Of a stretch of DNA of 64,000 nucleotides, positions 7,107 through 57,580 are shown piece after piece (position 1 is the first letter of the stretch; every line of letters begins with the position of its first letter). The stretch is from Symbiodinium sp. CCMP2592. Lineage: Eukaryota; Sar; Dinophyceae; Suessiales; Symbiodiniaceae. A program made the position numbers and the translations under genes. A model generated the notes under the pieces. The model saw only the letters and a list, made by a program, of their open reading frames with translations, ran no database searches and had not been told where the DNA came from. The DNA lies in NCBI GenBank assembly GCA_905221615.1, contig CAJNDT010003223.1:868001-932000 (forward strand). Direction: 5' to 3'.

Positions 7107-7199
7107 ATGGGAGTTTCCGAAAATTAGGGTGTCCTTATAATAAGGATCCTACTATTAAGGGTGCTATATTAGGGTCCCCTATTTTCGGAAACTCCCAAA
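7107..7199. mobile_element. Hairpin element, family E
   Basis: Inverted repeats GGGAGTTTCCGAAAATTAG and CTATTTTCGGAAACTCCC, with a central GGATCCTACTATT motif. The same family is at about 28827, 31351, 37208 and 57446, with fragments at 15423-15810 and 37440-38055. Confidence 0.8.
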
Positions 7200-7818
7200 T
7201 CTTCAACCCCAAACCTCCACATCCCCAAACCCTCCACATCTAAACCCTAAACCCAAAGCCCTGCACACTAGGAGCTGGTCCTACGAGCTGGCTTTGCAAG
7301 GTTTGATGGTATCCCTTCATAGTCCCTTCATAATGAATGTATATATTCATATACATATATATACACACACACACACACATATGCTTATCTTCACACGCAT
7401 TACATGTCCATATGCATGCATCCCCTCGTATTCTGATTGTTCCCCCCCTAAGCGCTCAATCCTAAGGAGCTGGTTTTGCCAAAGACGCCTCTACCGGCGA
7501 TTTGGTGCTCCCTTCGTCGGCCCCAATTGAGGCTCTCCGAAGGATGAGGATTCGGATTTTTGATTAGGTTCCCGGGTGCTCGAATCGGGTTTACGATTTG
7601 GGTTTAGGGTTAGGGTATTTATGAAGATTGTTCGGGTCATCGCGCTTATGAGGGTGATTAGGCTTGTCAGTGCTATGAGGGTTGCGAGGGCTAGTCGGGT
7701 TACCAGGGACGTTACATGGAGGTTCGGGCCTAGAAATAAAGAGCTGACTGAAATGCAGTGTGTATGTATATGTATATGTGTTTACATACATTCATGCGTA
7801 ACATGCACGCTTGCTTGC

Positions 7819-7914
7819 CCATCCATCCATCCCACCGTCCCTCCATCCCTCCATCCTTCCATGCTTCCATCCCTCCGACCGTCCTTCTGTCCATCCATCC
7901 ATCCATCCATCCAT

Positions 7915-7945
<31 letters not shown>

Positions 7946-8085
7946 TCCCTCCATCCCTCCATCCCTCCATCCCTCCATCCCTCCATCCCTCCATCCCTCC
8001 ATCCCTCCATCCATCCATCCATCCATCCATCCATCCATCCATCCATGCCTCCCTCCCTGTCCCTGCGTGCGTCCGTCCGTCCACA
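7819..8085. repeat. (CATC)n/(CAGC)n/(CATCCCTC)n tetranucleotide array
   Basis: About 265 bp of CATCCATC, CAGCCAGC and CATCCCTC blocks. The open reading frames across it on both strands are artefacts. Confidence 0.95.
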
Positions 8086-8087
8086 CA

Positions 8088-9056: not shown

Positions 9057-12000
9057 GTGAGTTTCGCATCACAGCGCAGGCCCACCAAGGGTGCAGCAGG
9101 ACAGACTATTCCGCTACCAACAAGTGCAGAGCCCTTTACCACACCGCGCCAGCATACCGAAGCAGAGCCACACGGAGCAACACTCTCAAACTTGTGTCAC
9201 CAAAGCTTCCGCCGGCGAGCAGTCTCGCTGTTTCGGTCTCCAGCTCAGCTCGAAGAGGCAGTTGCAATTCTCGTTCTGCTAGCTTCAAGTTTGCTGCTAG
9301 TGCTGCTTTCTGGCTTTGGTACGGTTGCGACCAAAAAGCCTTTAAACCCTAAACCCGAAGCCCTTAACACTACGCCGAAAGCTACAGAAGGCATGGTGGA
9401 GACCAAGCATGGTTCCCCTGCCATGAAGCCCAAGTGCGGCGCTCAATCTCTGGACCTGGGTTTATGGGTTGGGGTTTAGGGTTACTTGGAGGTTCATGGG
9501 TAGTCAAAACTAGGGTTATATATAAGTAGGACAACCATACTTACAACCCATATTCAGGGACTGGTAACCCCACTTATAACTACCCATGAACCACCAAGTA
9601 CTTGTAGGGAGGGCCATTTCATTGGGGTCCTTGTGTTTAGGGATAGGTGAGGCTTGAGATTCAGGCTTTGAAGTTGAGGATTATGGCGGGGAGGTTGGGG
9701 TCGTCAGGATTTAGGGTTTGGATTATTAGAGTTACGGTTCGCAAGTGTCAGGCTTTAGTTTTTTTCTGGAAGCGGCGGAGAACGCAGTGCCTAGTGATCT
9801 TCTGTTTGTTTCTTAGTAGGGAATGGGGGAATGGATTATGGAGACTTTTGTTGGGGATTATATAGGGATTACTTTACGGATCCATGCCCCCCACGAAGCA
9901 CCAGGAAGTCTTCCCTTCATACTTACCTATACTATTTTTGGGGGGTTCCTTGTAAAGAACATCGTGTAGGTGGGACTCAGAACCCTAGACAAAAATTTTA
10001 AGGCCCCCATATTACATCCTGATAACAGCCCTGATAGTAGCCCTTATCGACCCCCTTTTAAAGGAACCCAAAACAAAAATTTAAGGCCCCTACAGTAGTG
10101 ATCTTGACCCAGGTCCCCGCGATCGGGTACTGCAGTGAAGGGTGCGCTTCCGGTGTCTCGGATGCCACCAGAGAAAGGACGCGCTACTTTCAAAGGGATC
10201 TATAGGGGTTCCTTTAAAGGGATCTTTTGGGGTTCCTTTAAAGAAAACAGTAATATTTGTTGCTTATCTTCGTGGTTGGTTCGGTAGCCTATTTGTCCTT
10301 TGTCGTGCAATATATCACCCTACCATGCTAGCAAAGTGAAGTTTGCTTTAGCTGGGGGCGCTCAGCCTCTCACCTCTTATGTTATTGCACCCTGAACCCT
10401 AAACCTTGCTAAACTGTTGACCGTTGCCATTGAGTCCAGAATCGTCAAGAAACGGAGGGCGCTCGTTGGTTTGGGATTCAGGGTTCAGGGTTTACGCTAC
10501 ATCTTGTTTCTGATCGCCTTTTTCCCAGAGACTCCAATATCCCTTAATTAGGGAATAATTAATCCTTAAATCAGATTAAGGATCCCATTATAATTTAAGG
10601 TATTAATTAAGGGATATTGGAGTCTCTGAGTTGTCGGTGCTGCTTGCTTTCTATGGCCTTGCGGCTTTCCGAGGTTAGTGCGGCGACGTCGCTGTTGTCT
10701 GTGTCCGCAGCTGGCAACATGGCTAGGCACGGTTGAACGAGACCAACTGCTCTGGAAGCTGTGTGCTCGCAGTATGCCAGTAAGAATCGGCTGAGATCAT
10801 AACGTTGATCTTGTAGTCTTCACTACTTAGTGGATGGACCACAAGTGTGACAATGAATGTGAGACTGCAGAAACTATGCTAGCTGTACGAGCCTATTTCG
10901 GGAAGTTAGCTGGGACTGGGCATGTCATGGGTTCCAAGACGGTAAGGATACAGTGCTGCGCATGTAGAACAAAGGTCGCGAGATATAGGTGCTTGGAGGT
11001 TCATGGGTAGTTATAACTGGGGTTATAAGTCCCTTAAGTATGGGTTATGAGTATAGTTGCCCTACTTGTAACCCTATACTTACTACTCATGAACCTCCAA
11101 GTACGGTCCGTCAAAATGCGACACAAGGTACTTCCAGTGCAACTTAGCAATGGAGCGAGTCAGCAATAAAGCGATGTAAATAGGGGCCTTATAATAGTTA
11201 CTTATAAGAATCCTTAGGGATCCTTATTACGACTATAGTATATCGGGCCCCGAAATTCCTACTCTAATTATTGAATGGAGGCCCCTATAGTACTCATGGC
11301 TACTTCAGCGCTAGCAGCGTGGCAATGTAACAGTGTAGTAGTCTGCAGACTGTATTACTGTACAGCGTGGTTTGTTGTCATTGTGGGAAACCGATCGTCA
11401 CCATGCGCATACAATAGCAGTGCAGCAACCAACAGTCGGGGCAGTAAAGGTGCCAAAGGTGCCAAGTGCTGGAGAAGCGGCTGATGACAGGTTTTGGCAC
11501 AGCTGTGCCCTATGCGCTGCCCTGATCATGCCGCTGCTGATGCTGGGCACCCAGTGCTGGATAGTATGTTGCATCATACCACACTATACGGCATGCTATG
11601 CGCAGCGAGCTTCCGCTGCATGACACCTGGTTTGGATTGAAGATCTTATGTGCATTTGGCCATATTCTTCCTGCCATACGATACTGTTCATCCACATAAG
11701 ATCCTTCGTGGTTTCGTTCTTTCTTCCCGCATGGTGTTCTGTCTCGGCCAAGGATTTCGAGAGAGCCAGATCAGGTTCAGACGATGTTCTGTGAGGTACC
11801 AATATGGTGACCGTGTATTTGGAGTTTACTCAAAGGAGAGCCTACGGAAGGACTTTGTTGTAGTAGAACAGCTTTCATGTGCACTACACCGATACCTTAG
11901 TTGGAGGGTCGGGGGACTTAGCAAGTAGGTAGTAAGTAGACTTATAAGTACCCTAAAAGGGACCTAATTGATGTTATGGTACTTATAAGTCCCTAAAATA

Positions 12001-15000
12001 ACCAGTTACTAAGCCCCCCGAGCCTCCAAGTCTCATTTGCTCCCAGGTCGCATGGTTACAGTTTCTGAACACAGCACCACATCTCGATCCACTAACACAA
12101 AGCCGGCAATCCCAGAACGAGACCCACGATGCCGACGCTAGATCCTAAACCCGAAGGTGCTGAAACCCTAAAGCCTTAAATCCTAAACCCCAAACCGGAA
12201 ACCCGAGACCCTGAACCCCTAAACCCTAAACCCTACACCCTAAACCCCTAAACCCCAAACCCTTAAACCCTAAATCCCGAGATCCCTAAACCCAGAAACC
12301 GGGAAGTTCGGACGTTAGGACGCCGCCCATCTCGGACCCGTCAGATGAGGCCTTTCTGGGTCGGGGATCCGGGCACCTAATTTAGGGGCTTAAACAAATA
12401 CCATTATATACTATTTTGGAAATTCCTTATTCTGATTGTAGTATAATCGGCCCCCAAACCCTATTCTAATTATTAAGGCGCGTATAGTAACATAGAAGCC
12501 GCAATAATTACCAACACTATTCCTTGGGGCTCCTTACTACCAGGATATTGTAAAAAGGGGCAAAACTCTAGTATATCAGAGCCGCATATATAAAGGCTTA
12601 TAAAGGCACTCGGGGAATTTTCAGGGGTCTTTTAAGGAGTATAAGCCTGGCTGTAATCTTTAATAGTCCTCTATTGAAAGTTTAAGCAATCCTTCTAGTA
12701 TTCCTGATCGTAACGCTTTCACTAATCCTTGGAGAAATCTTTCCAAGGAGCCCTGTTCGACCGGAGTCTGTGCCGCTCTCATGTGTTGACAAACTTTCAC
12801 ATGAAGAGGCTTTAGACCATCAGCCCCAAACCCTACTTGGAGGTTCATGGGTAGTTATAGGTGCGGTTATAAGTCCTCCAATATGGGTTGGAAGTATAGT
12901 TACCCTACTTATAACCCTACTTGTAGCTACCCACGAACCTCCAAGTAGTGATCTTGTCTCAGGCAAACCCCAACCCTAAACCCCTAAACTCCTAAACTCT
13001 AAACCCTAAACCCTTAACCCCAAACCCTAAATTAAGCTTAGAGGATTTTGGTTTCTCCTTCTTTGCTCCATGGCTGGGCGCGCAGGAAGTCGTCGAAGAT
13101 TCGACTGGACCGTGCCCGTGTAGGCAAGGCAGGCACTGAGGATGTTCATCAGGGACCCCCAAAGCACATAAGCATAGGCATTTTGTAGGGATATCACTAT
13201 CCTTGTTTTTGCTTATGTGTTTTTTCGGGGCCCTAGTTCAGGGTTTGGGTCCTGAGCCCTGCATCCTAGCTGTTCGCAGTCGGAAAAGAGCCCTTAACAC
13301 AAAACTGAAACTCCTATGCCCTCGATTTGTTGGTAGAGACCTGTGGGATGGCCCACCAGGTACCTGCAAGTAGGGGCCACCTTCTTTGCAGTGGCTGTCA
13401 TGGCCGGGAGCTCAGTTGCGCCTAACCAGACCCCCGGGAGGATCTAGAAAGTAGATCCCCTAATTTGGGGCCCTATACTACTAAGGGTACTTTATTAGGA
13501 ACCCCCATTAAGGGATCTACTGTTTGGATCCTCCCGGGGGTATGGGTAACCTATGACAACTTGATTCCACTCGAAATTTCAGGTCTGGACCTTTGTGGCG
13601 GACGCCTTCTCAGCCGGTTGTTGCTGTAGATTTCCCCGCCTTGGCCTTCTTCTTCACGAGTTTGCAGCTATGCTGCAGGCCTGGCTGTGCTACAGCGGGC
13701 CTCTTACAGAAGGCTCGGGGCGCAAGGGATCGAGATGCTAGCCGGGCTTCACCCTCTTGCTTCATCTTGAAGCAGGCGTCCTCGCCGCCAAAAAGACGGG
13801 CATAGAAGGCCCGCTTTTCACAGCTGAGCTTCCCTGCTTGGGTTCCCCGCGCCTCTGAAGCAGGTCAAAAGACGGAAGGCGCCGATGCAAGTGCCGAGTG
13901 GAGCTCTCTAGGAAGCGGTTCCCTTCCTCAAGGTTTCCCACATCCGGAGTACAGATTTGAAGACGGGGGAGCACCCAAAACCCTAAAAACCCTTCAAGCA
14001 TGAACAGGAAACACGCAACCACAGCAGGTGAGCCCTCCGACATCTCCGAAAGCGTCCTTCAGAGAGTCGCGCAAGGCTCGATGCTGCTGACTGGGATCGG
14101 CTTTGGGTACATGTCAGTAATTAGGGTCAATACCTTAACCTGCCGAAACCTACTTTGTGGTAGCGCCCCTATGCATTCCACATTGGGGCTATTCTCGGAG
14201 CCTACCAAAAAGCATTTTTTTGGTAGTTCAAGGCAGGCTTTTGGAGGCTTGTTTCATCGCGTGAAGACTCCAGCATAAAGTGCCTTTCACCCGCTTGTTT
14301 GCCCAGAGACTCCAATATCCCTTAATTAAGGCATATACCTTAATTTTAAGGTCTATTCCCTAATCAAGGGATATTGGAGGAGTCTCTGTCTGCCGGGATA
14401 CCTCGTCAAAGCATCCCAAACCAGGAGCCCCCTGCAAGTCCTGATATGGGAGTTAGGATTAAGGGGACCCTTGGGGATAAAGACCCTCTCAATAAGGTCC
14501 CTTTTAAGAGAGCCAGATCTGGGGTTCAGAAGGCGTACCCTTTAAGGGGTCTTTCAAATAATACTACCTATGATAGCAAAACCCGGTGCCTGGGCCTGCT
14601 GCAAAGCATACTCCGGAGCAGCCTGAACGGACATCACCCTGAAAACCCGGTGTGGAACGCCCTCCGTGTCCCAGGTTTCGCAGACTTCATCATCGAAAAC
14701 AGCAGAAAGGATGGGGGCTTTGGATTGTTTCTCTTTTCTCGGTTCGAGGGCCTGCCTGGTCTGGCGGCTATCGGGGTTGGAGTTTTCCTGGGCTCCCTGG
14801 TATGGATGATGGACAAAATCCTGCATGACCCTAAGGACTCTAAACTATGAGAATTATGGTATATTCCTTATAATGGGTCAGGCAGGATTTTGTCCATCAG
14901 CACTATGGATGATGCAGCTGCGCACCACGATGCCAAAAGAAAAGCCTCTGTCACAGGAAGATCCATCAGGTTCGCGCCTCATTTTGGCGAAAGCAGAGGA

Positions 15001-16358
15001 TACTTGGAGGTTCATGGGTAGTTATAAGAGGGGTTTTAAGTCCCCTGATATGGGTTATAAGTATAGTTACCCGACTTATAACCCTACTTATAACTACCCA
15101 TGAACCTCCAAGTACAGGTTACAGCAACCCTAAACCTTAAACCCTGAACCCTAAACCCACCTGGTAAGGTATTCCTTCTGGTACCTGCAGTGGGAAAAGG
15201 GCCCGCAAAATAAAAAAAACAAACCCTAAATCCTAAACCCTAAACCCCTAAACCCTAAACCCCCAAACCCCCAAGCCCTAAACCCCAAACCCCCAACCCT
15301 GCACACCTAAACCCCTGAACCCAGGCCTTCGGGTATCCCAAACTTCTCACTGAGGCGGTGAGATGCGAAGCCTTGACCTGGCCAAGTTCGAGGCCAGCCA
15401 TGACATGATGGGATTAATGATAAAGGGTTTTCGAAAATTAGGGGTACCTTTAAAGGCTTAAGGGTACTATAAGGGTTCCTTTAAAGGGTTACTATAAGGG
15501 TTTCTTCAAAGGGCTGTAGGGGTTTGCAGTTTCCGAAAATTAGGGCGGGTACCTTTACAGGGTTAAGGGTACTATAAGGGTTCCTCTAAAGGGATCCTTA
15601 TATAGGGTTCCTTCAAGGGACCTATAAAAGGTTTAGGGTTTGGAGTTTCCGAAAATTAGGGGTGCCTGTAAAGGGTTACTAGAAGGGTACTATAATGGTT
15701 GCTTCAAATGGCTCTATAGGGGTCTAAAGTTTCCGAAAATTGGGAGGACCTCGTTTTGGGGTCCTTATAATAAGGATCCTATATATTAGGAACCCCTAGT
15801 TTCTGAAACTGGATCCTTTTTTGGGTACCATAATTTTGACAACCACCCATATAGAAGCCTAAATAGTTACCCAAATGCTTCCTTAGGGATCCTTATTACA
15901 TATCGTGGTACTAGAAGGTAGCCCCAAACCCTTAACTACTAAGGATGACAAATTACTTCGGGTTTCAAGGCTTTAGGGTCTACTGTATCCTTGTAAAGTT
16001 TCATTGTCATGGGGCTCTTTAGAAGTGTAGGGTTCTCTGATTAAAATAGAGGCCTAGATCATTACCAATATTTTTGGGGTTCCTTATTATGCTTACAGTA
16101 TAGTGGGCCCCAAAACCTACGCTAATGATTAAGGCCCCTATATTACATCCTAGCCCCTATAGTAGCCCTTATAGACCCCTTTTAATAATTTAACGGAACC
16201 CTATTCTAATTATTAAGGCCCCCTTTATTAGGGTCCTTGCAGCTGCCATCATCCAGGAGTTGGTTGCAGTTGCTCCTGCAGCTGCAGCATCAGCGCTTTA
16301 TGGCTACAAGGGCGGCAGTGGGCCTTCCAAGGCCCGCGCTTGCTTGATGTCGCCCTAA
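9057..16358 (+). CDS. Probable multi-pass membrane protein, dispersed exons
   Basis: Exon-like segments on one strand, several with hydrophobic helices. About 9057-9340: a Ser/Thr/Arg-rich stretch, then LEEAVAILVLLASSLLLVLL. About 10490-10670: YILFLIAFF then ELSVLLAFYGLAAFR, split by a family C element. About 13374-13430: ATFFAVAVMAGSSVAPNQTP. From 13582: VWTFVADAFS. About 13999-14125: ISESVLQRVAQGSMLLTGIG. About 14585-14811 with 14915-15000: GLAAIGVGVFLGSLVW. Terminal exon about 16243-16358: IIQELVAVAPAAAASALYGY, stop at 16356-16358. Introns hold TTTAGGG tracts and hairpin elements. No family was recognised. Assigning all segments to one gene is inferred from strand, hydrophobicity and the lack of other starts or stops. 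Individual exons are firmer (especially 14585-14811) than the whole model. Confidence 0.4.
9483..9600. mobile_element. Hairpin element, family A
   Basis: Left arm TACTTGGAGGTTCATGGGTA, right arm CTACCCATGAACCACCAAGTA. TA lies at each border. Confidence 0.8.
10524..10629. mobile_element. Hairpin element, family C
   Basis: Arms CCCAGAGACTCCAATATCCC and GGGATATTGGAGTCTCTGAG. It splits two hydrophobic exon-like segments of the membrane-protein gene. Confidence 0.8.
10992..11102. mobile_element. Hairpin element, family A
   Basis: Arms CTTGGAGGTTCATGGGTAGT and ACTCATGAACCTCCAAG, followed by TA. Confidence 0.85.
11181..11290. mobile_element. Hairpin element, family I
   Basis: Arms TAGGGGCCTTATAATAGTTA and GGAGGCCCCTATA, with a central GGGCCCCGAAATTC block. 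Related copies: about 12383-12489, 16044-16145, 39189-39270, 40590-40690, 45605-45735 and 56345-56450. Confidence 0.6.
11901..12029. mobile_element. Hairpin element, family B
   Basis: Arms TTGGAGGGTCGGGGGACTTA and TAAGCCCCCCGAGCCTCCAA. The interior reads GTAGTAAGTAGACTTATAAG. Confidence 0.85.
12160..12300. repeat. Intronic CCCTAAA telomere-like tract
   Basis: About 15 imperfect CCCTAAA/CCCCTAAA units, with substitutions such as CCCGAAA. It is internal, not terminal, because unique sequence continues on both sides. Confidence 0.9.
12834..12947. mobile_element. Hairpin element, family A
   Basis: TA borders, arms CTTGGAGGTTCATGGGTAGT and CTACCCACGAACCTCCAAG. It sits directly beside a CCCTAAA tract. 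Confidence 0.85.
13151..13235. mobile_element. Short hairpin element (singleton family)
   Basis: Arms AGGGACCCCCAAAGCACATA and TATGTGTTTTTTCGGGGCCCT around a short spacer. No second copy was seen in the window. Confidence 0.6.
13430..13541. mobile_element. Hairpin element (singleton family) next to a hydrophobic exon
   Basis: Arms ACCCCCGGGAGGATCT and GGATCCTCCCGGGGGT. Its left edge abuts the exon-like frame ending VAPNQTPG. Confidence 0.65.
14302..14388. mobile_element. Hairpin element, family C
   Basis: Arms CCCAGAGACTCCAATATCCC and GGGATATTGGAGGAGTCTCT. The right arm carries a 3-bp insertion (GGA). Confidence 0.8.
14807..14902. mobile_element. Hairpin element, family D', with 11-bp target duplication in an exon
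   Basis: TGATGGACAAAATCCTGCAT on the left and AGGATTTTGTCCATCA on the right. TATGGATGATG occurs at 14801-14811 and 14904-14914. Removing the sequence between, plus one repeat copy, leaves an open frame GSLVWMMQLRTTMPKEK across the joint. Confidence 0.8.
15003..15112. mobile_element. Hairpin element, family A
   Basis: TA duplicated at 15001-15002 and 15113-15114. Arms CTTGGAGGTTCATGGGTAGT and ACTACCCATGAACCTCCAAG. Removal joins GCAGAGGATA to CAGGTTACAG with the upstream frame still open. Confidence 0.85.
15205..15320. repeat. Intronic CCCTAAA telomere-like tract
   Basis: Run of CCCTAAA and CCCCTAAA units preceded by a short A run. Confidence 0.9.
15420..15810. repeat. Tandem fragments of family E arms
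   Basis: GTTTCCGAAAATTAGGG or a close variant recurs near 15428, 15530, 15645 and 15732, separated by runs of CTTTAAAGGGTTACTATAAGGG. It looks like tandem growth of an element interior. No exon was seen. Confidence 0.7.
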
Positions 16359-17172: not shown

Positions 17173-20100
17173 ATGTTCGTCCGCGAAAATTGGTCGGAAG
17201 GAGACCAAGGAGAAAGACATCTCCTTCGGAGTGAAGGACAGCCGCGAAGCTCGAAAGCTTTCAAGCTTGGGATTTAGGGTCTGTGGTTTTTTCGACATAC
17301 ATGCAGATCCTTTGTTGAAGTCAAGTTAGGGCTGCGGAGGATAGGGATCTAGCTGGAAGAAGCAGCATCTTCACTACGTTTGCATGCTCAAGCCGAGCTT
17401 GCAGGAAACACCTTCTCAGCCGAGCTCGAAGCCTTCCGACAAGAAAGCACAAGGCGCCTTGTGATGTACCGCTCTTCTGTAGCCATGCCCCCAGAGACTC
17501 CAACAGCCCTTAATTAAGGAATATACCTTAAATTATAGTCTAGTAGGATCCTTAATATGATTTAACGATTATTCGCTAATTATAAGGGATATTGGAGTCT
17601 CTGGGCCTAGCCTTTCTGTAACCCTTGTTCCACGCAAAGCCACTTTGCAAGGCAGAGCTGCCCAGACTCCTGCCAGTCGGTGTGGAAGCTGCGTCAACAA
17701 CACGAAGAGTGCGGTAGCCAAGGGGAAATCATGTGGGCGGTTGTCAATGTTTTTTAAGGTCCCTTTTTGGGTCCTTATTATATTACGGCACCTATTATAT
17801 AGGGTACCCAAAAAGGGCCCAGAATTTTGACAACCACCCATGTCGGACTGGCTGCTGCGGTTTGCAGAGGATGTGCTTCGGGTTCGCTCATCGCCGAGGT
17901 TGCAGTTGCTACAACTTGAGCACGCCAGACGGGAACATCCAAATACCTCAGCTGGAGACCTCCTGCTTGTCGCACGAGTGGGGGTTTAGGGGTTTAGGGG
18001 GTTTGGTGGATTTAGGCGGTTTTATGGGGTTTTAGGGGGTTTAGGGTTTAGGGTATCTCGAGGTTTATGTTTAAGGTCGCCAGGGTGCGAGCAGCCCTCA
18101 CAAAGAGGATGCAAGCTTCATTGCTTCCCAATGTGGGTAGTTGTCAAAATTATGGTCCCTTTTTGGGTACCTGAAATATTAGGTGCCGTACTATATTAGG
18201 GACCCCAAAAAAGGAACCCTATTTTGACAACCACCCAATGTCAGGACACGCCTCATCTGAACCTGTTCAAGGAGCTCCTCAGAGGCTGCCTGCCTCTACT
18301 TACATAAAATCATGATAATTTATGCTGTGTTATGCTATATCTTTATTATATTATATCACACTATATTACATTGTACTGTAATCAACTATATCTTATTATA
18401 TGATGCTATATGATGCTATATTCTGCTATATTCTGCTATATCATCTTCTTAGGACTACGCGGCTCTGGCAAAGGTTGCTTGTAGCTGGGAAAGGGTCGTT
18501 GCACTTGTCTTGCGTGTTGCAGATCGCTTGGTGGCCAACTTGATGGGCGAAGGCCAGCTGGCGATTCTTGTTGCATTCAATCGGAAGAACCGACATAGTA
18601 ACGGATTTAGGGTTTAGGGGTTTAGGGTTTAGGATTTAGGGTTGGGGTTCGCTGACTGCGGCACGGATGCCGGAATGCCCTTCATCGTGACAGGTAGTCA
18701 GAAGATCTCCGAAACCACCGACGAAGAGGCGACCTTGTTTGCTTCAGGGGTTATGGTTAGAGCCCTTTATGGTTATACAGTAATTAATGGTAACCTTATA
18801 TGTATGTTATATATATATATATAGTTCATATGTATTTATTTCTTATATATATATATATATAGATAGATCTAGATAGAGCACACACCCTTTTGGTAACCCT
18901 TATATGGTACCTTACAGGAAGACTGGAGCCCCCAAAACGGAGGCTCTTCCACCCTGGGAGCCTCGCAGGTGAAGCTTGCGGGTGGCAAGGCTTCTTCGTC
19001 AGGCCAGAAGCCAAGTCCATGGGGAACTTTGGTTTAGGGCTTTTAAGGCTTTTAGGGCTTTTAATTAGGGCTTTTTAGGGTTTGGGGTTTGGGGCATAGG
19101 ATTTTCAGGGCTCTTTCCCATGGTTTTGCAGGGCTTTTCGAGCTCGGCTTCAAGCTGCTACAGTTTGGAGATTCAGAACATACGGGAGCCCTAAAACATA
19201 CTCGATACCTTACACCCGGGCCGCTTTAAACTCGATATTATCATGCCCCAAACCCAACATACCCAAAGCCCCAAATCCCTTCACGCTGAGCATCTGCATA
19301 GTGCCTAGAGCCTTTGTTGACCTCATAGATGTAGTCCGAAAAACCTAAAGTGCTGAACCCAGCGACTGCCCCAAACCCCAAAACCTTAACCCCGAACCCT
19401 AAGAACCCTAAACCCTAAACCCTAAACTCTGAACCCCTGAACCCAAAGCCCCAAAACAAACCCTAAATAGCCCTAAACCCTAAGAAAGGCCTGGCTTCGT
19501 TGAACCCCCGGCTGCCGCGATGGTTCTCGGGCCCGGATGTGACAGCCTCGGAAGCGATCCCTTGCGGGTTCAGGGGTTTAGGGGATAAGGTTTCGGGATT
19601 TATTGTTTTGGGCTTTAGGGGTTTAGGGGTTTGGAGGTTTAAGGACTAGGGTGGGGCGCACGGTGTCGACGCTGTGACTGCTCCATGTACGAGGACGCAC
19701 GGAAAATTCGGGATGCGTTTGGGCTTAGGGTGGAGGGTTTAGGGTCTCTTGCAGGAGGGCAGTTGGCGGGAACCAGCGGCTCTTTAGTGTTTGTCTTTTG
19801 TTTAGGGTTTAGGGCTGTCGAAGCGGCGAAGCCCCAAAATTTTAAACACCTGAACTCCACACCAAACCCTAAACCCTGAACCCCAAACCCTAAAAGTCGC
19901 CGGCAAGCTTTGGAGCAATCCCTGTAAGCCTCAAGGTTCTTACTATTTTGGGGATTCCTTAATATAATTACAGCACACTGGGCCCCAAAGCCCTATTCTA
20001 CCATTGAGGCCCCCATATTACATCCTTATCATAGCACTTATAATAGACCCCTTTTAAAGGCACCCTATTCGCACCGTTAAGGCCCCTATATTAAAGCTTC

Positions 20101-20790
20101 GAAGCCGAGGCCGAGCAAGAGAAGAGCGATGCTTGCCTAAAGCCGGTGAAGGAAGACGCCCTGGAGGAAACTTCTGAATTTTCTGGTGTCTGTTTGGGGT
20201 TTGCCGGGGGTGGGGTGGGGTTTGCGGGGTTAGACCTCAAAGCTTTTGGAGTTCGGTGTTTCCTGCTGCGATTTCGTGATGCAGGTTTAGGAGTCTGGGG
20301 TCTAGGGTCAAGAGTTTCATTGCAAGGCACGGCCTACAAGCCTGCAGAGCATTGCTTGCGCAGGAGCTGTTGCTGCAGCTGCTGCAGTCCACCTCCATCG
20401 ACGACAAGATACTGGGCTTTGGAGTACCATACTTTAATACCTTTTTTGGGACCAGTATGGTATACTTCGAGGGGACCATTATGAAATAAAAGTCTATACT
20501 TTTTGGTATTGGTATTTCAAAACCCAGGATAACGGCCCCCTGGACTTCGCAGAGACACCGGAACTCCAAAGGCAGTGCCAAGGATGGAGCCTGGGGATTG
20601 CGCGGAATGTCACGATCCGAGCAGCAATAACAGCCTCAACAGTTTCAGTTCCACTGATAGTCTCCGTTTCCCACCCGAAGACCGCATATGCTGAGCAGGA
20701 GGCGGAAAGTATAGTGACTCCTGCCATTGCTGCTGCCGCCGCAGTCGCTGTTGCTGCCGCACCACATGTCATATATCATAAAGTAGAAGC
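17173..20790 (+). CDS. Multi-exon gene of unknown function containing element-derived introns
   Basis: Possible start ATG at 17173 (MFVRENWSEGDQGERHLLRS). Exon 17353-17478 reads AQAELAGNTFSAELEAFRQE. Then intron 17479-17610 (GT-AG, carrying a family C element), exon 17611-17734, element 17735-17838, exon 17844-17977 (SDWLLRFAEDVLRVRSSPRL), and a GT-AG intron 17978-18083 with TTTAGGG repeats. Exon 18084-18134 and the exon from 18242 are split by another element. Later candidates: about 18453-18597 (RVADRLVANLMGEGQLAILV), 18648-18750, 18917-19031, 19489-19568, 20094-20186 (acidic), 20326-20406 and about 20529-20620 (DNGPLDFAETPELQRQCQGW). The helical, HEAT/PPR-like look is an impression only; no domain was recognised. 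Whether exons after 18.6 kb belong to the same gene is unknown. Confidence 0.5.
17488..17604. mobile_element. Hairpin element, family C, inside a GT-AG intron
   Basis: Arms CCAGAGACTCCAACAGCCCT and ATATTGGAGTCTCTGG. The flanks supply the splice sites: GTAGCC at 17479 and CCTAG ending at 17610, giving a phase-0 join. Confidence 0.8.
17735..17838. mobile_element. Hairpin element, family F, exact frame-restoring insertion
   Basis: Arms GGGCGGTTGTCAATG and AATTTTGACAACCACCC, with ATGT repeated at both borders (17731-17734 and 17840-17843). Joining 17734 to 17844 gives QGEIMSDWLLRFAEDVLRV in the frame used on both sides. No AG dinucleotide is available at the right border for an exact join, so splicing would be non-canonical. 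Confidence 0.8.
17978..18083 (+). other. GT-AG intron with TTTAGGG units
   Basis: GTGGGGGTTTAGGGG start and GGTCGCCAG end. The flanking exons join in phase as LLLVAR plus GASSPHKED. The interior is mostly TTTAGGG/TTTAGGGG. Confidence 0.55.
18135..18233. mobile_element. Hairpin element, family F, with 8-bp target duplication
   Basis: CCCAATGT at 18127-18134 and again at 18234-18241. Arms GGGTAGTTGTCAAAAT and ATTTTGACAACCA. Exact removal reads ASFIASQCQDTPHLNLFKEL without a stop. Confidence 0.85.
20407..20528. mobile_element. Hairpin element (singleton family) between two exons
   Basis: ACTGGGCTTTGGAGTACCAT pairs imperfectly with GGTATTTCAAAACCCAG. Treating ATACTGGG...ACCCAG as the intron joins QSTSIDDK to DNGPLDFAET in frame. 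Confidence 0.6.
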
Positions 20791-20879
20791 CAGAAAGTTG
20801 GAACGTTATCCTCATGCCCATCGGGTAAATTAAATGGAGCCCCACCACATCTTCCAAATCGATGTTCCAACTTTCTGGG
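20791..20879. mobile_element. Short hairpin element (singleton family)
   Basis: CAGAAAGTTGGAAC on the left and GTTCCAACTTTCTGGG on the right. The opposite strand is open across it, so the orientation of any exon here is uncertain. Confidence 0.55.
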
Positions 20880-21039: not shown

Positions 21040-21185
21040 CAGAAACCCCTAAACCCTAAACACCACACCCTAAACCCCAAAACCCTAAATCCTAAAACCC
21101 TAAAAACCTAATCCCTAATCCCTAAACGCTAAACCCCTAACCCTAAAACCCTAAACCCTAAACCCCAAAAGAAAACCCTAAAACC
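21040..21185. repeat. Intronic CCCTAAA telomere-like tract
   Basis: About 15 CCCTAAA variants, ending just before the first TPR exon. Confidence 0.9.
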
Positions 21186-21191
21186 GCGAAG

Positions 21192-31350: not shown

Positions 31351-31462
31351 ATATGGGAGTTACCGAAAACTAGGGATACCTTATTCGGGGTCCTTATAAT
31401 GAGGATCCTACTATTTGGGTAGTTACTACATAAGGGTGCCCTATTTTCGGAAACTCCCATAT
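31351..31462. mobile_element. Hairpin element, family E
   Basis: Arms ATATGGGAGTTACCGAAAAC and TATTTTCGGAAACTCCCATAT. One of the cleanest copies of the family. Confidence 0.85.
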
Positions 31463-42579: not shown

Positions 42580-44298
42580 TGTGCACTATCTATCCCTCTA
42601 TCTTTCTATCGACCTACCTATCTATCGATCTATCTATCTATCTGCCTGTCTATCGATTTGTCTATCTATCCATCCGAAAGGAACCCAAAACCAACGTTCC
42701 CGAGGCAAACCTGGACAGAGCAGTCCTTTGGTGGCCGGCCGCCAGAGAAGGCGGGAGACAGAGCCCAGAAGTTTAGAGGTTTGATTTAGGGTTTGGGGTT
42801 TGGGGTGGGGGTTTAGGGTTTGGGGGTTTAGGGTCGGGGTTTAGGGTTTAGGAGTTTGGGTGTCTTACGGCTCGAATTCGGTTCGGGGCTTTGTGCTTAG
42901 CAGTTTGAAGTTGTGTCCAAGGCCTTTCCAGGGTGATGCTGGCGGGGTTTGTTCTGAGTTTACTGCGGTTCACACTGTTGATGGACAAAATCCTGCATTG
43001 CCCATTTTAAGGAATGTACCATACTTGCCATAGTTTAGGGTCCTTGGGGTCATGCAGGATTTTGTCCATCAGCAGCAGTGCTCTGTTCGGCTTTATAGCT
43101 GAAGCTTCTGAGGCTTGTGGGGTTGACTTCCAGTGTTCTGAGTCTGTTCGGTTTTACATTTGAAGCTTGTGGGGCTTCTGGGCCCAGAGAGCGCAATACC
43201 CAATCAAGGAATATGGCTTGAAAAATAAAGGGCTTCATATTAGGATTTTAGCTATATTCCTTAATTAAGGGGTATTGGGCCCTCTGGGGGGCTGATATCT
43301 CTGGAGGAGCTCCCCGGCAACTTGCGAAAATCTTCAGGCAGGAATTTTGGAGTCCTGCGCCACGACGACTACTATATGGACCGCAACAAGCCAAAACATC
43401 ACGGAACCGCCCAAACTCCAAACCCTGATCTCGAAACTTTCGAAACCGTAAACTCTAGATCGTAAGGCCTGAAGCCCAATCCCTATGCCCGAAACTGTAA
43501 GCTGTCAGGCATTCTACCCTTCGACCTGCTTGATTGACGATCAGACGCTGCTCTTTCTTTCGGGCAGCCGTGGTCGCTGGGAGCCTGCCAAGGACCGGTC
43601 AGCAAAGCAACCACCCAGAGACTCCAAAAGCCTTTAATTAAGGAATATACCTTGAATTATAGTAGGATCCTTAATATAATCTAAGGTATATTCCTTAATT
43701 AAGGGATATTGGAGTCTCTGGGCAGGATGACAAGACTAACGGCGCGACGAGATCAAAGTAGTACTGCTCGTCAGCTCGTCGCCGTAGTCGTCGCTGGGCA
43801 TAGCGTCTGAAACCGACAGCTCGTGAAATCTCAAGATCCTTCAGACTCTTCCTCCAACTTCCGAAAGCCGTGCTTGGAATGTCTGGAATCTGTACCATCC
43901 TCACCAAATGCAAGCACAGAGACAGGTTGCTCGAAAGATGCACCCCGAAGTGCTTCGACTTTGTCGCCAGGACGTGCTGGAAGTCTTCCTCTTGGACCTC
44001 GAGGCCTGCATGAGAGTACAGTCGCGGATGGATTCTGAGTAGCCGGAGTCACCGTAGCAGGGTGCTCGCTGTTGCTGTTGGTTTTGGCATTCGCTTCTTT
44101 GCTGCTGTCCCTAAACCCTAAACCCCAAAGGGTGCTTATCACGTTGTCGACTTAGGATTCTGGTTATTCTGGTTCAGCGTGCCCTCAGGGCCCTGTTTCT
44201 GATCACAAGATATCGAGCCTGTTGCTGTTTGACTTCTCATTTTTGGTGATATGTACGTTACAGACATATATACACATATGCGTATCATTAGATGTAAG

Positions 44299-46227: not shown

Positions 46228-46375
46228 ACATAGGGTTTAGGGTTTAGGGGTTTAGGGGTTTAGGGGTTTAGGGGTTTAGGGTTTAGGGGTTTAGGGGTTT
46301 AGGGTTTAGGGGTTTAGGGTTTAGGGGTTTAGGGTTTAGGGGTTTAGGGGTTTAGGGTTTAGGGTTTAGGGGAAC
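46228..46375. repeat. Intronic TTTAGGG tract
   Basis: About 20 TTTAGGG/TTTAGGGG units with few errors, ending at the next exon candidate (GAACTTCAG). Confidence 0.95.
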
Positions 46376-46380
46376 TTCAG

Positions 46381-48952
46381 GAGCGGCGCCTCGATGGTGC
46401 CAGTCTGGCACAAGCCAAGGCCTTCTCGCGAGCATTTTAATACAAGTTCCTTACTTGGAGGTTCATAGGTAGTTATAAGTAGGGCTCCTTTAAGGGTCCC
46501 TTTGAAGGGATCTATAGGGATTCTATAAGGGTATAGGGTTTAGGGCCTACTTGGAGGTTCATAGGTACAAGCCCTACACCCTATACTTGGAGGTTCATGG
46601 ATAGTTATAAGTAGGGTGAAAAGTAGGGTAACCATACACCCTATACTTGGCGGTTCATGGGTAGTTTTAAGTAGGATATAAGTAGGATAACTATACTTAT
46701 AACCCATATTAGGGGACTTATAACCGCACTTATAACTACCCATGACCCTCCAAGTAAGAATTGCCTCTGTTGTTTTCTGGACTATTTGGAAACTACAGTA
46801 TGACATGCCACAAAAGTCTATTCTGATTGTTAAGCCCCCCCTCCCCCGTCATACAATAGTTTGCTGGGGTTCGGGGCTTAGAATTTGGGGCTTGGGGCTA
46901 AGAGTTCTGCTTTGTGGCTGAGGCTGTATTCGGTTTCGGGTTGAGGGCAATACAGCAATGGAATGGTTCACCAGGTTCTATAAGCAGCGCGAAGCCTCTG
47001 ACCCTAAAGCTGCACGGTTTCGATGCGTTCCGCTCTATACCACTTTGAAGCAGTGTTCTGTGGTTGGGGTTGTTCGCTGACGGAGCGTAAAAGCAATCGA
47101 AATCTCCAAGGAGTTTGGCCTCCCCCTTCAAACCCGAACCCGAGCAACATTGAACACAGAGCTGCCTGGACCCTCGACCTCAAACGGCTTCGGGCTTAGG
47201 GTTTAGGGTTCAGGGCTTATTATTAACGAAAGGTGCACGCTGAGCCCTGAGCCCACACCTCCTCACAGCAGCCCGAACAGCCCTAGACAAAGGAGCACCC
47301 TCCATTGAACTTGCGACATCTTCAACCCTAAACGCGAAATTCTCAACCCTAAATAAAATCTAAAACCCTAAACCCTAAACCCTCTGAAACCTTATAAACC
47401 CTAAACCTAAACCTAAATCTAAAACCCTAAACCCTAATCCCTCTGAAACCTTAAACCCTAAAGCCCGAAGCACCTCTTCCGGCTCAGGCCTCCGACCTGA
47501 AGCCCACGCTGAAGAGCCTTGTGCCTGAGCCCGGCTTCGTTGAGTGCCCTGGCCCTCACAGACTTAAGGTTAGAGGTGTATTGTTTCAGAGTCTTTAGGG
47601 TTTAAGGTCAGAGGTTTAGAGTTTAAGGGGCTTTAGGCTATAGGGTTTTCGGGTTTTAGACTTTCAAAGTTTGGGGTTTGAGGGTTTCCCCTAGATCGTA
47701 AACCCTAAAGGCCCAAAGGGGTTCCAGGGTTCGGGTACTCGAAGCCTCTGTTTTGGGATTTGGGGAAATTTCGGAGCTCCACCTTCGGATGCAGCTCTTG
47801 CCATAGCGCAGGCAGATGCAGATCCCAGGAGACCCAGACTGGTCCAGGAATAGTGAGCATTTATATAAGGGTTTGTGGAGCATGTCCATAATACTGCTGA
47901 TGGACAAAATCCTGCATTACGCATTATAAGGAATATACCATAGTTCCCATAGTTTAGGGTCCTTAAGGTCATGCAGGATTTTGTCCATCAGCAGTAGTAG
48001 TTCCGAGACATAGCGTCTAACTATGCATATAGGTCATATCGGCAACCAGAAACATATGTATGCCAATCTATGCCCTGTACACGCCGAGCACCCATAGCAC
48101 ACCAGTAGGTCGAATAGCGCTCGCAAGTTCGCTTATGAAGTGGCAGGACGCTGATCATCACTGGATCACCACAAGAATCAAAATTAGAATGCGGAGAGAC
48201 TGTATACAACATGGGTAGTTGTCGCAGACTTGCAACACCAATCCGAGGAGCAATGTTGTAGCCATGACAATAGTAGGTTAATAAAGACCCACCTTATACT
48301 TATACATCACCCGTATTTGATGCACCCTATTGTACTACTGATAAGACTATAGTCGTTGCTGCAAACACCAACATTCAAATACTCCTTCCATTAGTTACTA
48401 TCGGAAGCCAGCCAGCATGTAGCTAGATAAGTTATCAGTAGCTGGCTGGCCACACAGATGCACATTCTCAAAGCAAGAAAAAACGTGGTCGGGAGAGCAG
48501 CAATCGCGCATCGCTTGCCTCCGAGGTCTTGTGCAAAGACGCCGCCAGAGGCTGGGAACATGCTGATTTCAACACACTACCTATAGTCTCCGTTGTAGCC
48601 TTCTCTTGGTTAACCAGTTTTATGGTTGGGATCCTATAATGAGTTTTTGGGTAACCAACAAAAGGAACTACAATGGAGACTATAGGTTGTCCCCGGCTTT
48701 CGGTCACAGGAGCTGGAACGTCACAGCGAAGCATACAGTCCTGCAGTTCAAAAGTCTTGTAGTAGGGTGCATGGCTTGAGTTTTAGGTAAACTCGTCAGC
48801 CTTTAGACATTCTGCCAAAGGAGAAAAACCAGCGCGACATCACGGAGAAAGCTACTACTGCCGGCACGACGTCGGCTGCCCAGAGAAGTACCGCCGCACT
48901 GATTCTGCTTTCCTGGGGTTTCGGTAGACGGTGCCTGACTGAAAGCTTGTGA
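46381..48952 (+). CDS. Multi-exon gene of unknown function
   Basis: Ordered + strand exon candidates. 46381-46437: ERRLDGASLAQAKAFSRAF. About 46950-47071: MEWFTRFYKQREASDPKAAR. 47092-47189: EISKEFGLPLQTRTRATLNT. About 47281-47325: ALDKGAPSIELATSS. 47472-47567: SDLKPTLKSLVPEPGFVECP, donor GTTAGA. About 47781-47852: DAALAIAQADADPRRPRLVQ. About 48478-48581: NRASLASEVLCKDAARGWEH. From 48689. Terminal 48807-48952: KEKNQRDITEKATTAGTTSA and a hydrophobic LILLSWGF, stop at 48950-48952. No domain recognised. Introns carry families A, D' and G and telomere-like tracts. Joins are inferred from order and strand only. It could be the C-terminal part of the Kelch gene if the stop at 45805 is not used. Confidence 0.45.
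46545..46757. mobile_element. Composite family A elements
   Basis: Three left arms (CTTGGAGGTTCATAGGTA, CTTGGAGGTTCATGGATA, CTTGGCGGTTCATGGGTA) precede a single right arm CTACCCATGACCCTCCAAG. It matches the composite at 36110-36279. Confidence 0.75.
47340..47470. repeat. Intronic CCCTAAA tract
   Basis: CCCTAAACC units with a duplicated CCCTCTGAAACCTTAAACCC block, running into an exon. Confidence 0.85.
47896..47994. mobile_element. Hairpin element, family D'
   Basis: TGCTGATGGACAAAATCCTG and CAGGATTTTGTCCATCAGCA. A nearly perfect palindrome. Confidence 0.9.
48582..48688. mobile_element. Hairpin element, family G, between two exon frames
   Basis: CCTATAGTCTCCGTTGTAGC and CTACAATGGAGACTATAGG. 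Exact removal reads HADFNTLLSPAFGHRSWNVT. A GT-AG option inside the arms (GTCTCC...CTATAG) is also open. Confidence 0.8.
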
Positions 48953-49483: not shown

Positions 49484-49627
49484 TACCTATAATCTCCATT
49501 GTAGTTCCTTTTTTTACCTATAATCTCCATTGTAGTTCCTTTTTTTGATTACCAAAAAACTCTACTATAGGATCCTAACCATAAGACTGGTTAGCCAAGA
49601 GAAGGAACTACAATGGAGACTATAGGT
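49484..49627. mobile_element. Hairpin element, family G, with duplicated left arm
   Basis: TACCTATAATCTCCATTGTAGTTCC occurs twice in tandem (from 49484 and 49516) before one right arm CTACAATGGAGACTATAGG. Confidence 0.85.
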
Positions 49628-49656
49628 AGGGTCTTGGGGTATTAGGGGTTCAGGGT

Positions 49657-53715: not shown

Positions 53716-53723
53716 TTCTCCAG

Positions 53724-54079
53724 GGATTTTCGCATCGGCACTGTTGCTGAGCGTGATTCTTCATGGTCAGGACCTCAGTCGTTACTTGGAGGTTCATGGA
53801 TAGTTATACGGGTCGTTATAAGTGACATTTTCAGTACCTATAGCTAGGACCTATACTAAGGGCACTTTAAACCACTTATAAGTACCCATGAACTTCCAAG
53901 TAGAGCATCGCATCCTGATGTACAGACTGCTGTGGGAAGGGATGCTCAGGTGCCCAGACATTCTGCAACCACAACATAGTCCAGCCCTGAAGCTCAGAGC
54001 GCTGTGCTGTGCAAGATCTTACAGCTTCACAGCGTTCTTTCAGCCTGCCGTCACGCCGGCGCAGGCACAGAGTCTCTAG
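53724..54079 (+). CDS. Two exons restored to one frame by removing a family A element
   Basis: Exon 53724-53784 follows TTTTCTCCAG and reads DFRIGTVAERDSSWSGPQSL (20 whole codons after one base). Exon 53903-54079 continues EHRILMYRLLWEGMLRCPDI and ends TPAQAQSL, TAG at 54077-54079. The join is exact if the element and one TA are removed. A canonical GT-AG option (GAG|GTTCATGG to CCAAG|TA) adds 9 nt and also keeps the frame. Function unknown. Confidence 0.55.
53785..53900. mobile_element. Family A element interrupting an exon, TA duplication
   Basis: TA at 53783-53784 and 53901-53902. Arms CTTGGAGGTTCATGGATAGT and GTACCCATGAACTTCCAAG. Confidence 0.9.
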
Positions 54080-54494
54080 AACCGCTCGAGCCAACAGCCT
54101 GGACTCGGAATCTGGGTTAGCACCTCGGAGCGGGAGCAGGGGATAGTGTAGCGTAGCACCTCAGAGTAACCTCAGTGTCTGGGCTTTGCAAGACCAGAGT
54201 CCCGCTGTGTGGCACTGAACTGCAGAGCGTGGCAACCCTGTAGCAGTGGCGTCGTGCTGTGACACGGAAGTATGAGTGCTTATGTTCACATGACAGGTTT
54301 TCTGGTTTTGCCATTGTGATGCTACCAACACTTGAAAGAGAAGTAAACCGATATGTCAATGTGGTTGTATACATATACACACACACATACAAATACACAT
54401 GCATATACGTACTCGTATACATGTCTGTAATCGTCTGTAACCTGTGATCTCGCTACATTTTTGAAAGGTGGTCTAATGTCGTTGTCACATACAG

Positions 54495-55098
54495 GCAGCT
54501 GCAGATGCCCACCAGAGCTGCTGAACTGCACCAGGCTGTACAAAGCTGCGACCAACATCAAGGACTGGGGTTTAGGGTTTAGGGACCATTCAGGGCCGTA
54601 GATGTAGAAGTGAGCTTACGGTTCGAGATCCCATGTGCAAAGGTCACACCAAACCCTAAACCCCAAGCCCTAAACCCTAAAGTCCAAGCCCTAACCCCAA
54701 ACCCTAAACCCGAAACTGGGCGCAGGGTTCGTATCATCGCATCTTGGCGCAGGTTCGCATGGCTCCAGACGTGAATGCGCCGACTTTGGCTGGAGCCCGG
54801 AGCCCAAGCCACTTAGGGTTAAGGGTTCAGGGGTGTGAGGGTTTAGAGTTGAGAGGGGACTGTTGTGGCGTGGGAAGATAAGATACGCACAAGATAAGCA
54901 TTTTTTTACTTCTTCGTTGCTACCTGTGATGCAGCAGAACAAGCATGCTTTGCTTCGAGCGGTCTCTGTGGCAACACCCGTGACATGGAAAACTACGTGG
55001 ACGCATATGTGCAGAACACCCAAAACGAAGCGACATATGCTCATGAGGCTTGTCTTAGGACAGATTTTCATACAGATGCTCAAGGCCTTTCTGATTGA
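54495..55098 (+). CDS. Short exon group, unknown product
   Basis: Exon candidates: 54495-54567 (QLQMPTRAAELHQAVQSCDQ), about 54735-54818 (YHRILAQVRMAPDVNAPTLA), about 54935-55098 (RDMENYVDAYVQNTQNEATY, ending TDAQGLSD with TGA at 55096-55098). The intervening introns contain TTTAGGG/CCCTAAA tracts. They could continue the gene at 53724 if its stop is bypassed by splicing. Confidence 0.4.
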
Positions 55099-55910
55099 GA
55101 ACGGCCTTCATGTCATTTCAATTGTCACCGTTGTTTTTGTGATTGTAGTAACACTTCTTTAACGTAATTGTTGCAATCAGTCTTATTTCCGTTATGGTAT
55201 TGTTTACACGGTTGTTACTATAACAATATGAAGGTTCCAGGCGGGAAGTCCCCCCCTGCGAAAACACACATTACGAATAATGGCGTCGTAGTACCACATA
55301 GTATTTTGATGAAGCTGCTTCGTGCGATGAGGCAGGAGCCGTTATTTCCTTCAGTTCTTGCCTGCCGGATAGTCAACACTGCTTTCTACGCCCCGGAAAA
55401 GAGATGATCAGGGCCGACGTCATTCGTGTACTCGCGCGTCAGTATACCTGTTAGGGTTCAGGGGTCTGGGGTTTAGGGGTTTAGGGGTCTAGGGGTTTAG
55501 GGTTTGGGGGTTGAGGGTTTAGGGCAATGACAGCACTGCGATGAAAATGTAAAGTACCGACGGCACCACCACGACCACTATCAGCCGCGTTGGTGGTGCT
55601 TCTGCTGCGGCTGCTGCTGGTCGTGCTGCGACCGCTGCTGGTCCTACTGCCACGAAGATTATCACGCACTACGAATCCGCAAATCAGAATAAACTACACC
55701 ACCTTCTGTAGTACATATTGCTATCCTACTTTCATGCAGCCAGCTACACCTTTATTCTGTCAATACAATTGCATCCACCTGTAGACTGTTTTCACAGTTA
55801 TCTATAGATTGTACACTAACTCAGACTATCTCATCTAGTTTTCACGACACTTTCCACTTTTTCCTTCTCCCGAGGCCAACCCTAAATCCCGTAAGCCCTA
55901 AACCCTAAAC

Positions 55911-57580
55911 GAGGCCGAAAGCCAGAAGCTGAAATCCGGCGAGTGGATCTCGATGATCAAAGCCGGCGACGCGCGGGACTCGGTCGGACGGTTTTCAGGG
56001 CTTGGAAAAGGTATTTCTAGGTTCCCCAGTAGTACCCTTTTGCCCTTTTTTTCTTTTGGGGTCCCCTTATTCTGACCGCTTACGGTTTCCGGGGCTTCAG
56101 CGTTTAGACAAGGTATCTCTAGATTCCCCGGCACTAGTAGTACCCTTTTGCCCTTTTTGTTTTGGGGTCTCCTTTCTCGAACCGAATATTAGGAAACAGG
56201 GTACCCTTTTTATTAAGGGTGTTACTCGGAAACCTACATTTTGAAGATTTCTTATTGTTGAAGCCAGATGTAAGCGCCTGCCCGAGCTTAAACTCACACA
56301 GCTCTTCACCCCCCCCTCCCCAACACCCTTAACTCCCAACACCCTAGTATAGGGGCTCAAATAATTACCTGCATTATTTGGGGTGTTCCTTATTAAAATT
56401 ATAGTATAGTGGGCCCCAAAACCTTATTCTAATTATTAATTCCTCTATATTGCAACCTTTAGATGGTTAAGACCTAACCCCTAAACCCTAACCCCTAAAG
56501 CCCCAAACCCTCTAAACTCCTCAGGTGTTTCAATGCTCGCAGATGAAGACCAGAGACGGCCAGGTGTGAGGGCCTCAAGAACACGGCAGGACCAGTGCAC
56601 GAGTGGTTGTCAAGGGATGCCAGGTTCAGGGTTTATACGGTTTAGGGCTTAGGGTTTCGGGTTTAGGGTTTTGGTTTAGGGTTTGAGGTTTAGGGTTGGT
56701 TTTGGGTTGAGGGTTTTGGGTTTGGGGTTCAGGGTGTTTGGGTCCGGTTTTGCGGTCTTTGTGGCTTGTTTTCATTCTATCTGCGCATTTGTTCGGTGCG
56801 TTCAACATGAAAAGGCAAGGAACCCATTATGTCGTGCCTATGTGGGAGATCCTCCGGGCTTCGGGTTGACGGAGAATGTCCTTGTCCTGCGCATCTGACC
56901 CGAGGTATTTGAAGCTCGCCGATCAAGATGGCTGGGTCTTTGGGAAAGGTGTCTCCGGTGAGTGGCGCTGGCCAGTTTATCGGGCTTAAGTAGGGCTTGG
57001 GACTTAGAATTCCTAGAAGTGCTCTAAGTTTAGTGTGTACCATAAGAGTTCCTTTGAGGGTTTCTCATGTCACCAACTTCGCTGTCCACCCTAAACCCTA
57101 AACCTCTGTCAGGTGGACCGGCCGGGACATTGTTGTTCCCGTACCAGACTCGGAAGCACTGGAAGCCAAGGCTCAAGACACGCTCTCTAACAATTCCGTA
57201 CAAAGAGACTCCAACATCCCTTAATTTACGGAATGTACATGAAATCATATTCGGGTTCCTAGTAGAACTTAAGGTATATATTCCTTTATTAGAGGATATT
57301 GGAGTCTCTGGCTGAGTAGTCTTTGGGATGCCCCTTCTTGAGTCCTGGCACGAGGCGAGGATTGTCAAAGACACCATGGAGCGTCAGCTGATTCGCGACC
57401 CCTCCGACAAGCCGTGGCCCCGGCCACTCCTCTTCTTCGTTCATATGGGGGTTTTCCGAACATAGGGGACCCTAATATAGTACCCTAAATAGTGGGATCC
57501 TTATTATAAGAACCCCAAAATACGGTACCCCTAATTTTCGGAAACTCCTATATCAAGTGCTGCCGACGTTGCTTTGACCC
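55911..57580 (+). CDS. Multi-exon gene, unknown product
   Basis: Exon about 55911-55990: EAESQKLKSGEWISMIKAGD. About 56905-56985: YLKLADQDGWVFGKGVSGEW. 57112-57197: WTGRDIVVPVPDSEALEAKA, ending NNS. A GT-AG intron 57198-57342 holds a family C element. Exon from 57343: SWHEARIVKDTMERQLIRDP and PRPLLFFVH. A family E element follows, then IKCCRRCFDPLS. The frame is continuous across both element sites. The GEWxxMI and DGWVFGKG motifs look like repeated small units, but no family was recognised. Confidence 0.5.
57198..57342 (+). other. GT-AG intron carrying a family C element
   Basis: GTACAAAG donor, CTTGAG acceptor, phase 0. Arms AGAGACTCCAACATCCCTTA and GGATATTGGAGTCTCTGG lie inside (57204-57311). 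Confidence 0.6.
57446..57552. mobile_element. Family E element with ATA duplication in an exon
   Basis: ATA at 57443-57445 and 57550-57552. Arms TGGGGGTTTTCCGAACATAG and CTAATTTTCGGAAACTCC. Removal plus one ATA gives PLLFFVHIKCCRRCFDP. Confidence 0.8.

Follow-up and report, generated by a model that had tools for sequence, protein, structure and literature searches.

Nested, MITE-like hairpin elements with three apparent duplication lengths in a 64-kb stretch of Symbiodinium DNA

A stretch of 64,000 nucleotides from Symbiodinium sp. CCMP2592 (contig CAJNDT010003223.1, positions 868,001 to 932,000 of the forward strand; hereafter the window, numbered from its first base) is densely occupied by short hairpin elements, which a sequence-only reading had described as a dozen or more unrelated, introner-like families. 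Our analysis indicates that these hairpins are very probably non-autonomous DNA transposons resembling miniature inverted-repeat transposable elements (MITEs), which belong to several families and have piled up in what appear to be long introns and intergenic stretches, while a small minority of them perhaps act as introns. New here are the nesting of the elements, the indication of three duplication rules within a single window and the observation that intron status is not evident for the majority of copies. The elements are ordinary in kind for such genomes and not a new kind of element, but they are dense and instructive in detail.

The claimed abundance of hairpins proved correct. A scan for inverted repeats with perfectly matching arms 12 or more bases long and spacers of at most 220 bases, from which arms carrying an exact telomere heptamer were dropped, detected 50 in the window as compared to 0-3 in each of 20 shuffles (10 first-order and 10 third-order Markov); telomere-like arms persist in about five of the 50 (e.g. 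at 8651, 10389, 19085, 19432 and 41064). The arms spelled out earlier for the families were found in the window with their partner arms, and a profile search of the window identified 63 whole or partial copies, together about 6,050 bp, from 14 seed families as compared to none in one shuffled window; the profiles were made from the clearest copies, hence this search was seeded by its own targets. The elements cover about 10% of positions 7107-57552. They were annotated by hand, and 46 entered the coding-score and splice-constrained tests, 41 the joined-flank and direct-repeat test and 42 the self-complement test. Ten of the 46 were folded as RNA, and all ten beat every one of their own 200 shuffles (z -5.3 to -12.8). 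The size of 50-150 bp given earlier fits most whole copies (86-146 bp) but not A7 (48 bp), the composites A8 and A9 (170 and 169 bp), the E2 complex (210 bp) and E4 including its insertion B4 (236 bp). Similarly, some elements are near-perfect palindromes as described and others are not, the identity of the 42 elements to their own reverse complements ranging from 0.70 to 0.96 over aligned columns. Rfam and tRNA scans gave no matches, and the element arm patterns had no match in three scans of viral contigs. One genome contig (L001, from a metagenome-assembled genome of an Asgard archaeon) contained an exact 19-mer without a partner arm, which is about chance level by arithmetic.

Terminal inverted repeats (TIRs) in dispersed copies, as expected for MITEs, are present, and a target site duplication (TSD) together with an empty site was found for three insertions only, B2 (TA), B4 (TA) and the E2 complex (ACAT). 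Element B4 (37242-37373, - strand) lies within the E copy E4 (37210-37445, -), and removal of B4 and one TA yields a sequence which aligns across the junction with the uninserted homologue E5 (57447-57549, -). Two insertions split the C copy C7 (28705-29176, +), the E2 complex (28721-28930, +), which is bordered on each side by ACAT, and B2 (28941-29086, +), which is bordered on each side by TA. The rejoined C7 aligns without gaps at both junctions with C4 (23820-23929, +), and its alignment with C6 (57201-57312, +) has a single-base gap next to the B2 junction. The TA target known from Tc1/mariner-type MITEs is thus present at the B2 and B4 empty sites, and the nesting provides a time order for some of the insertions.

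The flanks of the remaining copies extend this pattern. In E and F, exact 4-mers flank six of seven elements, namely AAAT at E1 (7109-7196, +), ACAT at the E2 complex, ATAT at E3 (31355-31458, +) and E5, ATGT at F1 (17735-17839, -) and ATAA at F3 (34185-34290, +); four of these (AAAT, ACAT, ATGT and ATAA) are not self-complementary. The seventh case, F2 (18135-18236, +), has the 5-mer AATGT. Direct repeats of 2 bp flank four of six C elements, TT at C1 (10524-10630, -) and C4, CC at C3 (17490-17605, -) and CA at C5 (43614-43722, -; folded). Flank pairs of A, B, D, D', G, I, J and K match in 19 of 26 cases, 18 of them being TA; A11, A12 and E4 are outside these counts. Flanks would match by chance with a probability of 0.005 at a length of 4 bp and of 0.069 at 2 bp. 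Taken together, these data suggest three duplication rules, TA for A/B, 4 bp for E/F and 2 bp for C, and the flanks of A, D/D', G, I, J and K are compatible with TA duplication.

Several observations weigh against the assignment to MITEs. TA and ATAT are identical to their own reverse complements and therefore, in a palindrome, indistinguishable from the inverted repeat itself. Hence, the TA..TA flanks (18 of 26) could belong to the inverted repeat, and among the TA cases only B2 and B4 separate the two; in general, insertion and inverted repeat are told apart only by the nested cases and by the asymmetric 4-mers and 2-mers. E4 and some copies of A, B, C, D and G lack matching flanks, and the ends of I1, J1 and K1 were placed at TA by hand. 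A transposase domain was found in none of the 48 open reading frames (ORFs) scanned out of 80 listed ORFs of at least 110 amino acids. Furthermore, the gene fragments within 7107-57552 are short and under the Pfam cutoffs, and intervening exons were possibly missed.

We propose that several MITE families, mostly of about 90-145 bp, populate this nuclear genome and that each duplicates its target over a fixed length. Two empty sites show the duplication to be TA for B, an empty site (ACAT) together with flanks shows 4 bp for E/F, and for C the flanks alone point to 2 bp. Three such lengths would imply that no fewer than three different, unseen transposases mobilise the families. The elements would accumulate, also within each other, in what the gene fragments suggest to be long introns and intergenic stretches of plus-strand genes. 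A small minority located in open frames with GT..AG or GA..AG ends, for which A11 and N1 are best argued, could be removed by the spliceosome as introns, and the hairpin stem would draw the two splice sites together. This one locus illustrates how tightly small transposons, apparently with three duplication rules, can fill a dinoflagellate-like genome.

The number of families stated by the sequence-only reading was too high. Different families have 181 10-mers in common, whereas 100 shuffles gave 73 on average and never more than 126, and a dozen unrelated families were consequently dropped as a description. The families pair up as A-B (47 10-mers), D-D' (27) and E-F (18), followed by B-F (14) and A-P (9). 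C and D/D' have a few core 10-mers in common (GGAATATACC and neighbours; C-D' 5 vs 0.6, C-D 4 vs 2.2), but their ends and duplications differ. Because 10-mers are shared among families beyond the shuffles, the sequences suggest about five multi-copy groups, A/B, C, D/D', E/F and G, in addition to family I, with three profile matches of which two are weak, and singletons. No sequences had been spelled out for I and J earlier, and the labels I to P are our own. According to the profile search, in which orientation was called from the less symmetric cores, copies run both ways: 6/8 for A, 4/1 for B, 7/4 for C, 1/3 for D, 1/2 for D', 7/4 for E, 3/2 for F and 1/1 for G, the calls for C being near ties.

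An alternative is that the elements are introners, each family creating introns by insertion into exons and leaving the copies outside exons as by-products. We regard this as unlikely, although several points speak for it. Repeated families are present at unrelated loci within the window, and AG ends occur in either orientation in most A and B copies and in two D' copies. In Symbiodinium microadriaticum, introners are described as having TIRs and 4-bp TSDs and as carrying the 3' splice site, the 5' one being derived from the TSD, in the part of PMC9860276 used here, which counts 548 introner families in 175 genomes; introns of Prorocentrum cordatum are reportedly rich in inverted repeats at both ends and enriched in introner elements, according to the sections of PMC10666404 on introns. 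On the other hand, AG is missing at the ends of E, F and most C elements, and several elements can lie in one gap between gene fragments. As up to nine element loci fall into one gap, the pattern is that of MITEs and not of one element corresponding to one intron.

Tests on the whole set did not reveal a clear enrichment for interrupted coding frames. ORFs across the joined flanks had a median of 84 codons for 41 elements and 82 codons for 3,000 random sites (P = 0.14), and they reached at least 60 codons in 37 of 41 elements vs 74% of these controls. A coding score of both flanks of at least 0 was obtained for 8 of 46 elements vs 13.7% of 5,000 controls, and of at least 2 for 5 of 46 vs 6.5%; this score is blunt, as only 59% of the positions in the exons on which it was trained pass a threshold of 2. 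N1 was the best minus-strand element in this unconstrained test. When GT, GC or GA and AG were required near the element ends, scores of at least 2 were found on the plus strand for 4 of 46 elements vs 3.3% of 3,000 controls, which slightly favours introners, and on the minus strand for 2 of 46 vs 3.8%. The plus-strand scores were 3.5 for C6 (57205-57319), which ranked first, 3.0 for N1 (as 6710-6813), 2.8 for A11 and 2.4 for C5; those on the minus strand were 2.9 for G1 and 2.6 for A11. Any excess of interrupted coding frames over controls is weak. The proposal that most elements are introns was abandoned on account of the frame, coding-score and splice-constrained tests and of the several loci per gap. 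Thus, of the introner claim, the coexistence of several mobile hairpin families stands, whereas intron status is weakly supported and best argued for A11 and N1. Only about two of the 46 elements appear to be fair intron candidates.

A11 and N1 are the best argued introner candidates, having splice-type ends and joining open frames. Removal of A11 (31146-31248, +; GTTGGG..GCCAAG) would join 43 open codons, the first of which are telomere-like repeat, to 29 codons ending in a stop, whereas the unspliced sequence has a stop in each frame. On visual inspection, its ends correspond to family A ends in which G has replaced the initial C. The profile match spans only family A positions 7-97 of 110, short of the ends, which weakens the introner interpretation; the flanks (TA and GA) are unmatched, and the joined peptide matched no Pfam family. 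Removal of N1 (6716-6813, +; GAGGGA..TCCAAG) would join 67 open codons to the exon at 6813-7061 (+), which has a PUB-like domain under the Pfam cutoff (E 2e-6). The upstream frame also passes through N1 without a stop and exits in another frame, so that N1 can be read unspliced in one frame, which speaks against introners. GA donors were allowed in a published dinoflagellate gene prediction, as described in the corresponding part of PMC10666404. D'1, D2, F2, A4 and B1 are ambiguous as candidate introns. D'1 (14803-14903, +; TA flanks) lies within a long open frame, and a frame is kept whether 14800-14917 is taken out as GT..AG or the element is taken out together with TA. The AG end of D2 (27991-28091, +; TA flanks) is located 16 bases before a TPR-like fragment, with more AGs between.

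In either orientation, most elements of A and B have CT at the start and AG at the end, one base off GT..AG; only the A11 and B1 copies begin with GT. It is conceivable, but in our view quite improbable, that MITEs form a store of nearly ready introns from which A11 and B1 became canonical introns when their first base changed from C to G. If true, a genome full of neutral hairpins would hold a reserve of introns accessible by a single-base route.

Two further explanations are both very improbable. Multiplication of the copies by local segmental duplication would agree with local tandem repeats such as a 60-bp unit at 36102-36221 and 46575-46696, with the runs of E arms as local repeats and with near-identical flanks near 23548 and 23795, but the flanks outside the element differ for most copies and the insertions of B4, the E2 complex and B2 are precise. 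Likewise, immobile regulatory or RNA-processing structures under selection in transcripts would explain the very stable folds in a region seemingly read from one strand, but not the direct repeats, the nested empty sites, the occurrence in both orientations and the many broken copies.

MITEs of the Stowaway or Tc1-mariner type duplicate a TA target. The window elements resemble these in being short and numerous, with TIRs and a TA duplication shown for B2 and B4, and differ in that their stems run almost end to end and a partner transposase was unseen in 48 of 80 ORFs. Their TIRs are not known to match those of Stowaway.

Among dinoflagellate introners, many coexisting, transposon-like families per genome have been described in Polarella and others, and as multi-family introners are published for this group, the coexistence of many families is expected. 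For Polarella glacialis, the passage of PMC11453091 citing Roy et al. 2023 gives 12,253 introns that stem from recent introners, and 15 families that each comprise at least 100 introns, whereas in the window about two of 46 elements are fair candidates. The E/F elements match the S. microadriaticum introners in the 4-bp TSD and TIR but, unlike those described in the same part of PMC9860276, have no AG end. Amoebophrya possesses hairpin introners with inverted repeats, short direct repeats and non-canonical splice ends (compare the GA of N1); the part of PMC7789003 considered here reports no family-specific arms detected, whereas the window families have clear ones, and for most window copies a position at intron ends is not shown. 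Effrenium voratum contains more introner elements than its symbiotic relatives according to the comparison in PMC11114475.

The remaining elements are given with strand where assigned. Family A includes A1 (9485-9598, -), A3 (12836-12945, +), A4 (15003-15112, +; folded), A6 (33249-33339, +) and A10 (53785-53900, -), all with TA flanks, A2 (10992-11101, +; arm match), A5 (26115-26225, -; self-complement alignment), the short A7 with two A arms (34484-34531; arm match) and A12, which is intermediate between A and B (32388-32499, -; profile search). A11 was among the folded hairpins. Alignment revealed that A8 (36110-36279, -) and A9 (46586-46754, -), 10 kb apart, are two copies of one composite A element, in which a 60-bp arm is doubled. 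Family B further contains B1 (11900-12030, +; GT start, AG end) and B3 (32685-32816, +; TA flanks), and family C contains C2 (14302-14391, +; flanks unmatched) and a diverged copy from the profile search (43183-43288, +); a C arm with its left flank is directly duplicated at 23548-23600 and 23795-23850. D1 (25864-25974, -) and D'3 (47894-47994, -) have TA flanks and D'2 (42975-43075, -) has CA flanks, while D3 (40947-41047, -) and D4 (33991-34090, -) were placed by self-complement alignment. The profile search also detected four partial E arms in a run (15427-15810, +) and three matches to partial E and F arms (37460-38057); these one-sided runs without partner arms are spaced by CCTTTAAAGG-type repeats. 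Family G comprises G1 (48580-48686, -; arm match) and G2 (49486-49626, +; left arm doubled, TA flanks). The inverted-repeat scan contributed I1 (23337-23427), the singletons J1 (33763-33870), K1 (39589-39685), L1 (13430-13541) and O1 (20790-20878), and M1 (2109-2227), which lies outside the range of the sequence-only reading. P1 (23675-23795) has short arms and nine 10-mers in common with A.

All gene fragments are on the plus strand. Together with the TTTAGGG repeats and a putative GA donor, genes on a single strand would fit a dinoflagellate. A WW domain (1-627) and ankyrin repeats in a long open frame running off the window (62659-63999) scored above the Pfam cutoffs. TPR-like fragments between 21216 and 28698 (stitched E 2.3e-4) and Kelch-like fragments between 31759 and 45406 (stitched E 1.5e-7) remained below them, single pieces ranging from E 0.003 to no match. 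Successive TPR- and Kelch-like fragments are separated by 0, 4, 2, 0, 3, 9, 1, 3 and 0 element loci, with fragment ends uncertain by a few bases and exons between fragments possibly missed; the TPR-to-Kelch gap probably lies between two genes.

The window contains 279 CCCTAAA/TTTAGGG heptamers in 78 clusters on both strands, as compared to about 8 expected at equal base frequencies, and clusters such as 21047-21356, 38184-38460 and 46236-46365 constitute large-scale interstitial telomere-like repeats. A tetranucleotide repeat at 7819-8046 consists of 57 CCAT units.

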